The notes beneath the pieces were generated by a model that searched no databases, had not been told where the DNA came from, and saw only the letters and a program-made list of their open reading frames with translations. The position numbers were made by a program, and so were the translations under genes. DNA of 64,000 nt, taken from Siphonodentalium dalli (lineage: Eukaryota > Mollusca > Scaphopoda > Gadilida > Siphonodentaliidae). This document shows positions 15,600 through 23,950 of this stretch, one piece after another. Position 1 is the stretch's first letter; each line of letters starts with the position of its first letter. Location of the stretch: the NCBI GenBank assembly GCA_032622095.1, contig CP136068.1:120967989-121031988 (forward strand), read 5' to 3'.

Positions 15600-16576
15600 T
15601 ATGGCAAGCCAAACCGCTATTTAATATTAATTAATAACATCATATTTTATTTTACTTAAGTATAATAACGGTCATTTTTTATTTCACTTAAGTAAAAATA
15701 ACCATGTTTTAACTTAAGTGCAATTCTTTTTTACTTAAGTAAAATTAAAAAAGGGCGTAACATAATGGTAATTTTATTTCACTTAAGTAAAATTAGTGTG
15801 CGTTTTAATTTTACTTAAGTAAAATAAAACCATGTAGATGGCGCTTTATTTAACTTAAGTAAAATAAAATGAAACTTTATTTTACTTAAGTAAAATAAAT
15901 TGTCATTTTATTTTCACTTAAGTGAAATAAAGTGTCATTTTATTTTACTTAAAGGGATACTGTACCCAAATGTTGTTGTTGGTTTCTGTAGTCTCTGAGT
16001 CGGAGAATAAGGTAAAAAAAATTCCATTATTTGAAAGTCTGTTGAGTACGAAGTAGTGTTACGGATGGCAAATTTACCGGAATGCAAAAATACAAATTGT
16101 TGTTGTCGAGTAATTTTTGTACAGTTTTCAACTAAATGTATCAAATAAAAGTTTTATTATATATGCATACTAGTCCCATATACTCATTTATCGTCACTAG
16201 TCAGTGAGTGGCCTGAGTTTTCTCCCCGTATCAGCATAATGTTTCAAACGGTCGTGTGTGCAATGGGTTTACTAATCCAGTATCCCTCAATTATAATTTG
16301 ATTACGTCTGGTACACGGAAATTCGTATTTTAATTTACGCCATTTTATGGCTCCAGCCATAAATTCAATTTATATTAAATTATTAACTTTTAAATTATTA
16401 AATTTTAAGATAGCCTATTAACCTGAGCGTTTACAGAATACATCTTCGATTCAAATTACTTATGTTTCTATATATTATCGATAATAGATCGTTGTTATCA
16501 TCGGAAATTTATTGAAAATGGCGTACAGTACCCCTTTAAGTAAAATTATTATTAAATAGCGGTTTGGCTTGCCATA
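15600..16576. mobile_element. Family F TA-flanked element made of ACTTAAGT palindromes
   Basis: TA duplication and inverted termini TGGCAAGCCAAACCGC/GCGGTTTGGCTTGCCA. The body is an array of TTTTACTTAAGTAAAA-like palindromes (about ten between 15645 and 15955), interrupted by a family E element. TA target suggests a Tc1/mariner-type element. Confidence 0.75.
15949..16539 (-). mobile_element. Family E TTAA element, copy 1, nested in family F
   Basis: TTAA on both sides and termini AGGGATACTGTACCC/GGCGTACAGTACCCCT. Removing it restores a TTTTACTTAAGTAAAA unit of the host element. The second copy, inside the LINE, is inverted relative to this one. Confidence 0.9.
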
Positions 16577-17299: not shown

Positions 17300-17481
17300 A
17301 GAATAGGATAATATGATATATCCGGCCTGTAAGGGAGCAGGTGTGTGCATGCAAAGGAGGGTGTGGGAATGGAATGCAACACCAAATCAGCTCTATATAT
17401 ACGACGGATCTTCCACAGGACCAGGACTCAATCGCTCCCCTATATATATACTCACATCGAATCACAGACTAAAACACTGTT

Positions 17482-18705
17482 ATGACTTGTTCGACACAGC
17501 AGTATAGGGCAGCGATTGGAGTCTTCGACTTGAGGAAGAAAACTAAAAAATCTCAGGCGGCAAAAAATGTTGGACCCTTAAAATGCAACTTCCGAATATT
17601 CAATCTGAAGATATGTTTGATTATGATCTGTCTAATCCTTATGTTATCCGGCGACATTGAAAAGAACCCAGGCCCTAATACCTTACCTGTAAATAGTCAT
17701 TCAATCTCTATATTTCATTACAATATCCGAAGTATTCGCAATAAGCTCGAAAAGATAGTTGATATCATTGACGAGTATGACATCCTGTGTTTTAGTGAGA
17801 CCCATCTTGACCCTTCATATCCATCCGACAAATTAATTATTCCTGGCTACTACCCACCTGTCCGCAAGGACCGTGATTCCAAAGGAGGGGGAATGTGCGT
17901 AATGTTTGCAAATCACATAGTCCATAGACGAAGACACGATTTAGAATTCGATTCCTCGATATTATGGTTTGATATTTTCTCGAAGAAAACTCACATTCTC
18001 TTAGGAATGTCCTATAGATCAGAACAATACTGTGATCCAAACTATTGGGAGTACCTTGATAACTCAATAGCAGACGCTCTAGAAATAACCGAAAATGTTA
18101 TCATTACAGGTGACTTTAATTCTAACCTTCTAGATAGCTCTTCCAAACTTAAAGAAATTATAGATTTTTATAGTATTAAAAATGTGATAACAGCCCCTAC
18201 TAGGATCACAAATACACCGAGCACACTTCTTGATCCAATTGTAATCAGCAATACCTTCCGCTTTCTTGACACCGACGTCATTAATCCAGGAGTCTCAGAC
18301 CACCGTGGTGTTTATGTAACATTAGAATACGATTACTCCCCCACCACCTCTTTCCAGAGAACGGTTTGGAATTATACTAGAGCAAATTTTGAAAGAGCAA
18401 ATAGCCTGCTTAGTAACACAATTAACTGGGATGATCTCCTATCTGCACCCGACATAGATACTATAGTTAACAATTTTCAGGAGACATTTCTCTCCATCAT
18501 GAATCAAACAATCACACAGTCAAAAGTGACAATACGCCCAAAAGACAAAATTTGGTTTAATTCCGACATTAGAAAAGAAATCCGCAAAAGAGAAAAATTA
18601 CGAAACAAAGCGCTAAAAAACAATCGCCCTGATACGTGGCAACAGTATAAGAATACCAGAAACAAAATTAATAACATGAAAAAGTTCGCAAAAGCAAAAT
18701 TTTAA
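17482..18705 (+). pseudogene. LINE N-terminus: 2A peptide and AP endonuclease
   Basis: 407 residues. A basic leader and a hydrophobic stretch (CLIMICLILML, about residues 45-55) run into SGDIEKNPGP (residues 56-65), a canonical 2A motif (DxExNPG/P) predicted to separate the leader from the enzyme during translation at G64/P65. Next comes an AP endonuclease: HYNIRSIRNK, FSETHL, GDFNSNLL and SDHRGV carry the expected catalytic Asn, Glu, Asp and His positions. The frame stops at a TAA after KKFAKAKF, before the RT, which continues in another frame. The true start codon could be upstream or downstream of 17482. Confidence 0.85.
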
Positions 18706-18835
18706 GAGAAACTGGAAAATCGGGTTAAAGACTCATCATCCCCCCGCGATTTTTGGCAATTAATAAATTTCTTGCTATATAAAAAGAAAACAAATTGTAT
18801 CCCGCCCCTATATATCTACTCCAAGCTCTTTCCCC

Positions 18836-19398
18836 AACACGAGCAACACGGTTGATATAAACGGAAAACTCTACGTAACAGACGATCTGGACAAAGCCAA
18901 CCTGCTGAATAAAAGTTTCATTTCCAATTCTTCGATTAACGATTCATCCCATAAATTACCACCATTCAAATCGCGTTGTGAAAAAGAACTAACGGAATTG
19001 GAATTTACGCAGGATGAGATAATTTCTGTATTAACATCGCTCAAACTGAATAAAGCCCATGGACATGATGGAATAAGTGCGAAAATGTTAAATTCAATAG
19101 CTGAATCAATAGCATATCCTCTGTCAATAATTTTCAATAAATCCTTCAACAACGCAAAGTTTCCATCTACCTGGAAAAAGGCTAACGTTGTTCCAATTTT
19201 CAAAAAAGATGACCCAGCCGACACAAAAAACTATCGACCTATCTCCCTGCTTCCTTGTCTTGGGAAAGCGTTTGAAAAACTTGTACTAAAACAAATAAGT
19301 CCGTTCTTCGACGACAATAAATTACTTTATTCCAACCAATCGGGTTTCATAACCGGCCACAGCACATCTCACCAACTGATAGACCTCTACAATCACCT
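18836..19398 (+). pseudogene. LINE reverse transcriptase, first part
   Basis: From INGKLYVTDDLDKANLLNKS the frame continues through FTQDEIISVLTSLKLNKAHG and NVVPIFKKDDPADTKNYRPI to SNQSGFITGHSTSHQL and YNHL, the RT fingers region (KxxGxDGI, NYRPISLL, QSGF). It is cut at 19398 by a 1.1-kb transposon and resumes at 20519. Confidence 0.88.
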
Positions 19399-20518
19399 TA
19401 GTCCAAGTCTTCTTGTACTAAAACCAGCTAAGATATTGGGATGGCGATGAGTTACGCCCACGATCTGTGGCGGGAATTTGTGGTGTATTTTACTCGATTT
19501 ACCTAGCAAATCAATACATGATGCTATATACATCGGAAAGGCTTACATCTAATGGTCATAATGGTGTATAATAATCTAACTTTAATGTTAAATTACACAT
19601 AGAATATTCCGGTTGATTGCCACAAACATCGATTTTTTCTCTGTTTGTTTACGTTTTAACCGAAAGCCGAAGTGGTCCGAATAAGTTCGGCATAATCCGC
19701 TGTTTGTTCTGGGAATTCTACTTTCCGTTTCTATATATAGCGCGGGTTTTCCGAACAAAAATGGCGAAAACCGATCGCCCGAAAGTCCAGTTTTCTATGT
19801 GCTTTCAGAACAATTCCCGCACTAAAAACTTAATGACATAATGGAGGATCAGAACGGTAGTTTTGTTGACAATTATCGCAAGCAACTTGTCAAAATTGGA
19901 GCAAATTAGATCTCTTGTGTCTGACTTGCCATGCGTGTGGTGTGCATTTTGACATCTGTGTTGATAACATAATCGGAGAACCGAATCACACAGTTTCGAA
20001 ATATAGTTCTTCCGTTTTAGTGGGACTTTTCAAACTTAAGGTTCATTTATTTAGTGTATTACATTTATATCTCCAATGTTTAATTAATCTATTTATTATT
20101 TTATTTATTGACACACATAATTACGATTACAATGGAGAATTCATCGTAATTTGCGTTGTTGTCCAAAATCTACGGAATATTTTCAACGGAAAATGCCGAA
20201 CACAGTTCGCGAGGTCAACCGAGTTCGCATACTTTTAAAACATTGTAAACATTGAGGTAAATGTCTCTTTTCGCATTAAATTACCGTTTTAAATTCACAA
20301 CTGATGTGGGTTTCAGATAAAATAGCATGTCTTCTGCGGAAAATATCCGTTTATTGTCGCAATTGTGATATTTTATTTCATATAATTGTGGTTTTATTTG
20401 AGCGGGTCACTAACGCTTAAGCCGTGTCATAAGCGAGCATATAGGGCGGTCTTGGACTAAACGCCAGCATCGCCATCCCAATATCTTAGCTGGTTTTAGT
20501 ACAAGAAGACTTGGACTA
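19399..20518. mobile_element. 1120-bp inverted-repeat transposon with 9-bp target duplication
   Basis: Long inverted termini (TAGTCCAAGTCTTCTTGTAC at the left, complement at the right, about 50 bp) flanked by CAATCACCT at 19390-19398 and 20519-20527. Excision restores the LINE frame (YNHL then CQSLDKG). A 9-bp duplication fits Mutator-like or Merlin-like elements; no transposase was recognised. A second, partial copy is at 63805-64000. Around 19730-19912 there is a TATATATAG motif and short open frames, one of which is kept in the second copy. Confidence 0.85.
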
Positions 20519-20941
20519 CAATCACCTATGTCAATCTCTCGACAAAGGACTATATACATGCTCTGTTTTCTGTGATATTTCCAAAGCCTTCGAGAGAGTT
20601 TGGCACAGGGGACTGTTATATAAGCTATATAATTATGGAGTTCGCGGGAGAACATTGAGATGGATAGAGGACTACCTTCATAAACGGCAACAAAGAGTCT
20701 TAGTAAATAACACCTTTTCTGAATACGAGATCATCCCAGCTGGTGTACCACAGGGCTAAATCTTAGGACCCTTCCTCTTCCTTGTCTATATCAACGATTT
20801 ACCAGACAACATACTTTATTTTACGAGAATGTACGCCGACGACACATGTCTAACAAATAGTCACTATGACCCAAATGAATTAGGCCGCGTCATGAATAGT
20901 GACCTCCAAATCATAGCGGTCTGAAAACTGGTTAGTAAACT
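20519..20941 (+). pseudogene. LINE reverse transcriptase, catalytic part
   Basis: NHLCQSLDKGLYTCSVFCDI leads to SKAFERVWH and, after a premature TAA in PQG-stop-ILGP, to FLFLVYINDLP and the catalytic YADD box (MYADDTC). A frameshift before SENWLVNFN places the following thumb region in another frame, cut at 20942 by element E. Confidence 0.88.
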
Positions 20942-21542
20942 TTAAAGGGGTACTGTACGCCATTTTCATAAAATTTCCGGTGATAACAACGATCTAATAT
21001 CGATAATATATAGAAACATAAGTAATTTGAGTCGAAGATGTATTCTGTAAACGCTCAGGTTAATAAGCTATCTTAAAATTTAATAATTTAAAAGTTAATA
21101 ATTTGATATAAATTGAATTTATGACTGGAGCCATAAAATGGCGTCAACTAAATTACGAATTTCCGTTTACAAGACGTAATCAAATAAAGTAATTGAGGGA
21201 TACTGGATTGTTAAACCGATCGCACACACGATCGTTTAAACATAATGATGATACGGGGAGAAAACTCAAACCACTCACTGACTAGTGACGATACAATAAC
21301 GTAAATGAGTATATGGGACTAGTATGCATATAATATAACTTTTATTTGATTCATTTGGTTGAAAACTGTACAAAAATTACTCGACAACGACAATTTGTAT
21401 TTTTGCATTCTGGTAAATTTGCCATCCGTAACACTACTTCGTACTCAACAGACTTTCAAATAATGGAAAAATTGTTACCTTATTCTCCGACTCGGAGACT
21501 ATAGAAACCAACAACAACATTTTGGGTACAGTATCCCTTTAA
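20942..21542 (+). mobile_element. Family E TTAA element, copy 2, inside the LINE
   Basis: TTAA at 20942-20945 and 21539-21542; termini AGGGGTACTGTACGCC and GGGTACAGTATCCCT. Removal restores the LINE reading WLVNFNASKT. About 600 bp, no coding region. Confidence 0.92.
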
Positions 21543-22600
21543 TGCTTCTAAAACAATTAGTATGTCCTATGCACTAACGGGGACTTATGGGGAAGCCCCC
21601 GACTTAACATTTAAACAGGATCCAATCTCATTTGTTGAAACACATAAACACCTCGGTCTGGAACTCCAAGCTAACTTAAAATGGAATAATCACCTAAATG
21701 GTATAAAAAAACAGAATAGCCTCACGCTTAGCACAGCTCCGAAGATTTAAGTATCAGCTTGACCGAAGATCGCTTGAAAGCATTTATAAAACTTTTATCC
21801 TACCACTATTTGATTACTCCGATGTAGTCTGGGATTGTGCCCCCAAATACCTAACCGAGAAGCTCGACCGATTACATTGCGATGCCGCCCGAACAGTTAG
21901 TGGCCTCACACGATCAGTGTCCAATATAAACCTCCTAAATGAAGTTGGCTGGCCAACACTGAGCAAGAGAAGAGAGATCCATAAACTACAAGCAATGTAT
22001 AAAATAGTAAATGACGATGCCCCCGAATACCTACAAAATCTCCTAACACCTAGATCATCTGAAGTCTCTGGATATAACTTGAGAAAACCGGGAAAATTCT
22101 ATTCTTACTTCTGTAACACCGAGCATTTAAAAAAATAATTCTTCCCCGCTACTTTAAAATCGTGGAATGACATACCCACAGAAATAACAGATGCCGAATC
22201 TATCGCAGACTTCAAATTTTATCTCGAATTAATAGATCCTACAGTAAAACCACCAACATACTTCTATACAGGTCGTAGAACGCTTAATGTCGCCCATGCC
22301 AAATTGCGTAACAAATGCAGCAGCCTACGTTCCGATATGTTCCAAAATTATATCTCTGACAGCCCCCAATGCCATTGTGGAAATCCATGCGAAGATACTT
22401 ACCACTACCTCTGGGCGTGTCCCCTATTTCACACCGAACGAATGGAAATGTGTCAAAAATTTTACCAAGAAGGACTGAAAATTACACATATCAATGATTT
22501 ACTTCTCGGAATTCCCGATATCTCAAATAGAAGAAACAAAATTCTCTTCAAAATAGTCCATCGATATATAACAGCGACTAAACGATTCGAAGTCGGATAA
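21543..22600 (+). pseudogene. LINE thumb and C-terminal CCHC-like region
   Basis: Three frames give NASKTISMSYAL, FVETHKHLGLELQANLKWNN, then FILPLFDYSDVVWD and GYNLRKPGKFYS, ending with a zinc-knuckle-like CHCGNPCEDTYHYLWACPLF and a stop at 22598. HKHLG and DYSDVVW are typical of Jockey/CR1-group LINEs. Frameshift in an A run near 21710; in-frame TAA at 22136. Confidence 0.85.
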
Positions 22601-22705
22601 TCAAACGCATTTCAGAATAGCCACAAAAAGCAAATTAGTCACAAATCGGTTTTGGCACCTCCCACCCCAAACCCCGAACCCACTCATTTGTAAATGTAAA
22701 TATGT

Positions 22706-23182
22706 TTAAAGGTACTCAACCCGATAAAACTCCTCTCAATTACTATTTCAATGGCTTCGGGGGTCAAAAATATTTGATTCGAGTCGAGGAAGTCACCCAT
22801 CAAAGCTCAGATTTGTTAGATATCGATTTTATAAATCTATTATTTTTCATTATCGGGAATACTATCTGGCCCAGAACTCAGTCAAAATTACGTTAAAATT
22901 ACCACTTGATTTTAGAGTTATTCATCCTTGTCTGTTTGAATAGATTTGAGGTACACATCCAGAGCAGATTACGGCAGTTATTGGTACTCATCTCGAGAAC
23001 ATAACAAATTTGAAAAATCAATATCTAATAACTCTGAGCTTTGTTTGATGGGTTCCTCGACTCGAATCAAATATTTTTTACCCCCAAAGCCAAAGAAATA
23101 GTAATATAGGACCCTCTGATCGGATTGTTGTTGTTGGAATCTGTTGAGATGGGGACCCTCTTTACGGGTTGAGTACCTTTAA
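22706..23182 (+). mobile_element. Family G TTAA element, copy 2, in the LINE 3' UTR
   Basis: TTAA on both sides, termini AAGGTACTCAACC/GGTTGAGTACCTT. Sequence matches 4246-4732 in reverse. It is the third element nested in the LINE. Confidence 0.9.
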
Positions 23183-23335
23183 CCTATATATGATTTTGAA
23201 TCTTTCCTTCAACATTTTGTATGAATAATATTATTGTAAACAGGGAGAGGGGCAAAGTAAGTTTTGTAACTTGTCCCCAATCCCTTTTGTATTATTCGAT
23301 ATACAAATAAAATATGTTTAAAGAAAATGGAATGC

Positions 23336-23950
23336 AATTTAATTCCTAGGGTGGACACCCCACCCCAAACGGAGACCCTCTATTCGAGTCCATGTGTGCA
23401 TATATGTCTCAATGGCTGGGTCAAATTGAGTTTATGGGGAGTCTCTACTGAAGTGCATATTAATTGTTTATTTGAAATGATTTACGATTTGAACAGTGCA
23501 TTTTTGCGCTTACAAGAACAGAGTTTAAATTATTTTCGTTTGGACAGTACAAATAAGGAATAACGTGAAAAGCCCCCTCCATACAACTTGAAACACGAAG
23601 AACAATGAGTCGTTTTGGGTGTACGTGTGTATCACTTGGAACAACCCAAAGTTCTGCATGCATGCACCGAGAATCCTCCAAATTCGCACATAGAATCCGT
23701 CGATCGGTTGGTCTAATTTGGTCAGGATGATATAAGATAAGATCAGATAAGTTTTAATGGTGCTACTGCCACAATAACTAATAGGTATAAGTATATTATG
23801 TGCCGCAGGCTCCCCTCGATCATTAGAGTGTAGAGGTTAGTTACCCACACACCTCCCCATCCCGCCATCCCATAGTATCTTATGCGCCGCTGGCGCCCCC
23901 ATAGAGGCTACTGCCACATAAATAATAGGTATATATAAGTATCTTATCGA
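23336..23950. other. Low-copy intergenic sequence
   Basis: A loose tandem duplication is visible (GTGCTACTGCCACA near 23760 and GGCTACTGCCACA near 23907, each followed by AATAGGTAT). No gene recognised. Confidence 0.4.

Follow-up and report, generated by a model that had tools for sequence, protein, structure and literature searches.

Sequences of the 2A (StopGo) type are rare in cellular genomes. In the trypanosome element L1Tc such a sequence reportedly lies upstream of the endonuclease region. As described where it is cited, L1Tc (Heras et al. 2006, cited in PMC5972666) shares with the locus analysed here a 2A sequence within the open reading frame of a LINE, and by that description it is set apart by its host lineage and its leader. 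APE-type LINEs of animals are also known to carry 2A sequences (Odon et al. 2013, as reported in PMC4981915 and PMC12846837). Those elements share with our locus a 2A core in an animal APE-type LINE polyprotein and the same expected recoding, whereas our locus differs, as far as the two accounts describe the earlier elements, in having the 2A directly before the endonuclease, a single ORF with no ORF1 found, and a leader that carries the motif QYRAAIGxF.

Two further systems resemble the sequence just before the core. In sea urchin NLR proteins, 26-residue N-terminal 2A signal sequences have been assayed both for skipping and for secretion (Roulston et al. 2016, PMC4981915), and they share with our locus a hydrophobic run directly before a 2A core near the N-terminus. 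However, the NLR is a host immune gene, while the element here is a LINE, read from its sequence, whose leader has 64 residues rather than 26, with the run starting at residue 44 and an additional conserved motif upstream of it. Among viral StopGo sequences, LLLLSG-like contexts (motifs 2 and 6) form a class of their own (Li et al. 2026, PMC12846837), and assays of four StopGo contexts, motif 6 among them, gave efficiencies between about 92.7% and almost 100% (PMC12846837). Our locus likewise has a leucine-rich hexapeptide ending in SG before DIExNPGP, with Asp at p12 (PMC12846837), and its LILMLSG falls into the LLLLSG-like class when compared by eye. It differs from the viral contexts in lying in a retrotransposon and in its longer run, of about 12 residues here and up to about 21 in other families.

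The element and the state of the window copy

The window (the whole stretch of 64,000 nucleotides that was analysed) contains a single-ORF APE-type non-LTR retrotransposon (LINE) with its ORF at 17482-18705, and this copy is broken. Comparison with other copies in the 2.23-Gb genome gives the element a span of about 17380 to 23325. Its features are the following.

17368-17379, no strand assigned: left target-site duplication, AATGGAATGCAA, an exact 12-bp flanking repeat
17380-17481, + strand: 5' UTR remnant; same-subfamily relatives extend further upstream
17482-18705, + strand: ORF, reading MTCSTQQYRAAIGVFDLRKKTKKSQAAKNVGPLKCNFRIFNLKICLIMICLILMLSGDIEKNPGP and then the endonuclease
17482-17673, + strand: leader peptide of 64 residues ending in NPG, with predicted release by skipping (upstream in-frame stop; ATG context common to subfamilies)
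17500-17529, + strand: leader motif QYRAAIGVFD, residues 7-16, invariant or nearly so in subfamilies A-F
17611-17646, + strand: hydrophobic run ICLIMICLILML, residues 44-55, modelled as a helix with low confidence
17647-17676, + strand: 2A/StopGo core with context, SGDIEKNPG/P, with the predicted break between codons 64 and 65
17719-18303, + strand: APE-type endonuclease domain, residues 80-274 (PF03372, Exo_endo_phos, E=1.1e-18)
18703-18705, + strand: in-frame stop that ends the window ORF; other copies read through
19202-19390, + strand: start of the reverse transcriptase (RVT_1, Pfam match), interrupted downstream
19399-20518, no strand assigned: inserted DNA element that splits the reverse transcriptase, with 51-bp perfect terminal inverted repeats
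20946-21536, no strand assigned: second insertion, missing from other copies
22710-23177, no strand assigned: third insertion, close to the 3' end, in which 22717-22846 and 22998-23127 form long imperfect inverted repeats
23326-23337, no strand assigned: right target-site duplication, an exact repeat of 17368-17379 that puts the element end at 23325

The original prediction, a LINE polyprotein in which a hydrophobic stretch runs into SGDIEKNPGP and then into the endonuclease, is borne out in this ORF on the + strand, and the leader, put there at about 64 residues, has exactly 64 up to NPG. What stands of the polyprotein claim is the succession of leader, 2A and endonuclease; the ORF is not the whole polyprotein, since relatives reach 824-1141 codons. 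Translation starts at M1, and no longer frame runs into the leader from upstream, because an in-frame TAA (17470-17472) lies four codons 5' of the ATG and in-frame stops sit close upstream in related subfamilies too.

The endonuclease is of the apurinic-like type, with GDFN and SDH motifs, and a reverse transcriptase follows downstream in the same element, as an RVT_1 fragment in the window and in full relatives too. The 12-bp duplication (17368-17379 and 23326-23337) and the truncated 5' UTR are signs of target-primed insertion. The window copy is dead: it is 5'-truncated, as we see from same-subfamily copies whose common 5' UTR is longer by several hundred bases, its ORF stops early at 18703-18705 where relatives continue, and it carries three insertions. 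Despite the truncation, the whole leader is retained. As a separate observation, GTACTGTACGCCATTTT occurs in inverted copies at 16515-16531, just upstream of the LINE, and at 20950-20966, at the start of the second insertion, and is probably a second repeat family.

In longer relatives a single ORF runs for about 1120-1140 codons; its endonuclease occupies residues 78-276 and its reverse transcriptase residues 567-792, where RVT_1 in full relatives matches with E about 1e-30 or better; sequence matches in the PDB were to R2 elements only. The window ORF, compared by sequence with solved structures, gave no match, and a search for relatives in viral contigs found none. We modelled 400 residues from 10 sequences (mean pLDDT 67.8), and Foldseek matched the model to human LINE-1 ORF2p and its endonuclease, then to APE1 and the R1Bm and TRAS1 endonucleases. 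In the model, a low-confidence helix spans residues 42-55, the 2A is unstructured, and the first endonuclease strand starts at residue 72, 7 residues past the 2A break.

The 2A core, its conservation and its variants

The core, DIEKNPGP, lies at 17653-17676 and has the form D(V/I)ExNPGP. We searched at the DNA level for a 2A core pattern whose third residue may be Glu, His, Gln or Asp; the window has a single occurrence (17653-17675) and 100 shuffles have none. Genome-wide we count 645 sites of D(V/I/M)ExNPGP against 1 for the reversed pattern. A query of leader and endonuclease gave at least 103 genome matches, with subfamilies at about 97, 72 and 60% identity. Coordinates could be compared for matches that fall within the site lists, which span contig 1 and the beginning of contig 2 for the E-type and contigs 1-3 for the H-type. 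Of the leader-covering copies that this check reaches, 21 of 21 have the core where it should be; copies that are intact yet without the motif, which the prediction had named as evidence against itself, were thus looked for in this set and not found. Nearly all loci that we read directly have the core as well; L008 reads NTGP and has a stop inside the region.

Between subfamilies, the ten codons of SGDIExNPGP have pN of 0-0.15 and pS of about 0.5-1.1, silent sites being near saturation, while pN is 0.07-0.22 in the endonuclease and 0.27-0.70 in the 7 residues after the break. By this contrast few stretches of the protein are as constrained as the core, and the residues after the break are free until the endonuclease begins. 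As judged from these substitution patterns, the 2A motif is kept by selection, and the canonical 2A predicted for this APE-type LINE is real. One might still suppose that the motif is a chance or relic sequence with no activity, seeing that the window copy is dead and that 2A activity here is a prediction from sequence. Strong purifying selection on the core, its occurrence within long open frames in several subfamilies, and counts of 645 (E-type) and 307 (H-type) where the reversed patterns give 1 and 0 make this very improbable in our view.

Position 14, which is Glu in the window core, varies. Subfamily D (L031, L088, L104) has DIHxNPGP in frame before the endonuclease, with DIHINPGP in long open ORFs of this subfamily. 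Genome-wide, counting copies and not independent events, position 14 is Glu at 645 sites, His at 307, Gln at 31 and Asp at 5, with 1197 sites for all residues, and the corresponding reversed-pattern controls give 1, 0, 0, 0 and 14. In viruses, His at p14 is a rare variant with more than 95% activity, and a change of Glu to Gln leaves the sequence partly active (PMC12846837). The preference of this genome at p14 matches that reported tolerance, which lends indirect support to the view that these sequences are selected for skipping.

Two observations on the wider distribution may be added. D(V/I/M)HxNPGP is found in many LINE families, for example L031, L088, L090, L095, L101 and L104. At approximately 200 further D(V/I/M)xxNPGP sites p14 holds a different residue, and these sites repeat as families (for example DISPNPGP, DVSLNPGP, DIKPNPGP and DINPNPGP).

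The hydrophobic run and translation of the ORF

We think it probable that the polyprotein is split during translation by the 2A, and that the hydrophobic run serves chiefly as the exit-tunnel context of skipping. Translation would initiate at M1, so that the 64-residue leader is made first. The context held in the tunnel, together with the core, would then block formation of the Gly64-Pro65 bond, the leader would be released, and the ribosome would continue to make a separate endonuclease-reverse transcriptase with proline as its first residue and the first endonuclease strand 7 residues further on. The run would act first as tunnel context: with 9 residues between its end and the break, it should not yet have left the ribosome, as judged from the known length of the ribosome tunnel, at the moment that decides on skipping, and that moment would come before any signal recognition. 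With the run in the tunnel at that moment, the freed leader would bear a hydrophobic helix near its C-terminus, much like a tail anchor, and may have a minor membrane-bound role. We infer the skipping, the part that the run plays in the tunnel and any membrane role; the anatomy, the conservation, the purifying selection and the survey of copies are observed.

Could the run do more than provide context? In the window's group it has about 12 residues (-14 to -3), and in several other families 19-21. Its KD11 is 2.6-3.5 across all seven subfamilies, with basic residues preceding it; the window run has KD11 3.5 and KD19 2.3, and the other subfamilies have KD19 of 1.1-2.0, the lowest value, in subfamily D, being under the usual transmembrane cut-off. 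The conserved hydrophobicity reaches beyond the six residues that precede the core, and across three independent subfamily pairs the run has taken up 1 polar residue, fewer than the 5.8 of simulated drift (P=0.008). A run that is conserved past those six residues and that resists drift may, besides its part in StopGo, have a membrane role.

The original prediction went further and proposed a switch between two destinations, membranes for the unskipped product and the nucleus for the skipped one. Spelled out, the unskipped leader would act as a signal or signal-anchor that takes the endonuclease-reverse transcriptase to the ER, the skipped enzyme would stay free and reach the nucleus, and the ratio would be regulated and useful. 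The premise that 2A-coupled signal sequences exist is correct, and the sea urchin NLR 2A sequences do behave in this way in HeLa and plant cells (PMC4981915); the hydrophobicity of the run in all seven subfamilies, its persistence under drift and the basic residues before it would also suit a signal. However, the run is itself StopGo context (PMC12846837), it begins at residue 44, away from the N-terminus, and other 2A LINEs of the same genome have no such run, so that dual targeting as it was stated is not supported. Moreover, the KD19 of subfamily D lies under the transmembrane cut-off, contexts of the LLLLSG-like class skip efficiently and would leave little unskipped enzyme, and an ER-bound retrotransposase has no known use. 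We therefore regard such a switch as improbable.

The families that do without the run are L060, L061, L084, L091 and L094. In these, the 2A lies directly before the endonuclease, and its context is amphipathic, with charged or polar residues at -3/-4, -8, -11 and -15 and, where computed, KD11 of 0.7-0.9 against 2.6-3.5 in the window's group. Since these families of the same genome place 2A before the endonuclease with no run, a hydrophobic leader is not required in a 2A LINE. A further arrangement is seen in L047, L058, L070 and L071, where a cysteine-rich domain resembling a PHD finger comes immediately after the 2A; L047 has an endonuclease match further on.

The leader peptide and its possible function

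StopGo gives no explanation at all for the QYRAAIGxF motif near the start of the leader. Looser forms of this motif (YRQAIGLF, YRASIGCF and YRLRIGSF, or YRxxIGxF) recur in more distant 2A LINEs, and the N-terminus of the leader is under purifying selection, with a ratio of 0.13-0.34 where computable. Extra constraint on silent sites was considered for this region and set aside, pS there being not clearly below that of the rest of the ORF.

An ORF1 was looked for upstream in the element and in its relatives, and was not found. Open frames of 95-186 codons do lie before the ATG or overlap it in several subfamilies, and were considered as candidates. Between B and B2, however, the upstream frame has pN 0.34 and pS 0.38 with single-base indels, and among subfamily A copies it is shifted; with pN close to pS, with such indels between subfamilies and with frame shifts among copies, we take these frames to be non-coding.

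Might the freed leader then be a working small membrane peptide, which the 2A co-produces with the endonuclease-reverse transcriptase in place of an ORF1 protein? This would be compatible with the split by 2A set out above, and both can hold together. The lack of an ORF1 among the frames searched, the non-coding nature of the upstream frames, the purifying selection on the leader N-terminus and the recurrence of its motif in distant 2A LINEs all argue for it. Yet the linker shows poor conservation, no domain was detected in the leader, the structure model there is of low confidence, and the conserved block also spans the DNA just before the ATG. Because conservation extends 5' of the ATG in this way, part of the leader conservation may be at the RNA or DNA level. 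On balance we consider a working membrane peptide possible but unlikely. The fuller proposal, in which a leader composed of QYRAAIGxF, a basic stretch and a C-terminal helix replaces ORF1 and is co-produced by StopGo from a core with interchangeable Glu and His at p14 in hundreds of copies, we offer as a doubtful one.

The short conserved stretch just 5' of the ATG belongs to a pair of conserved 5' UTR blocks that we observe in L033, L030, L035 and the window (near 17449-17481). One lies directly before the ATG and the other around CAGGTGCCAAC, both are common to subfamilies A and B, and they are possibly promoter or RNA elements.

More generally, 2A sequences in APE-type LINEs (as reported in PMC4981915 and PMC12846837) and dual-targeting 2A signals in sea urchin NLR proteins (as described in PMC4981915) were already known. 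What is less expected is that one animal genome has so many copies of the His variant, that it has two types of context and that the leader motif is conserved. Many families of this one genome together hold about 950 sites; two contexts stand before the same endonuclease, and Glu and His are naturally swapped. It is therefore directly testable whether the leader has a function of its own, and whether the hydrophobic run serves the tunnel or a membrane.
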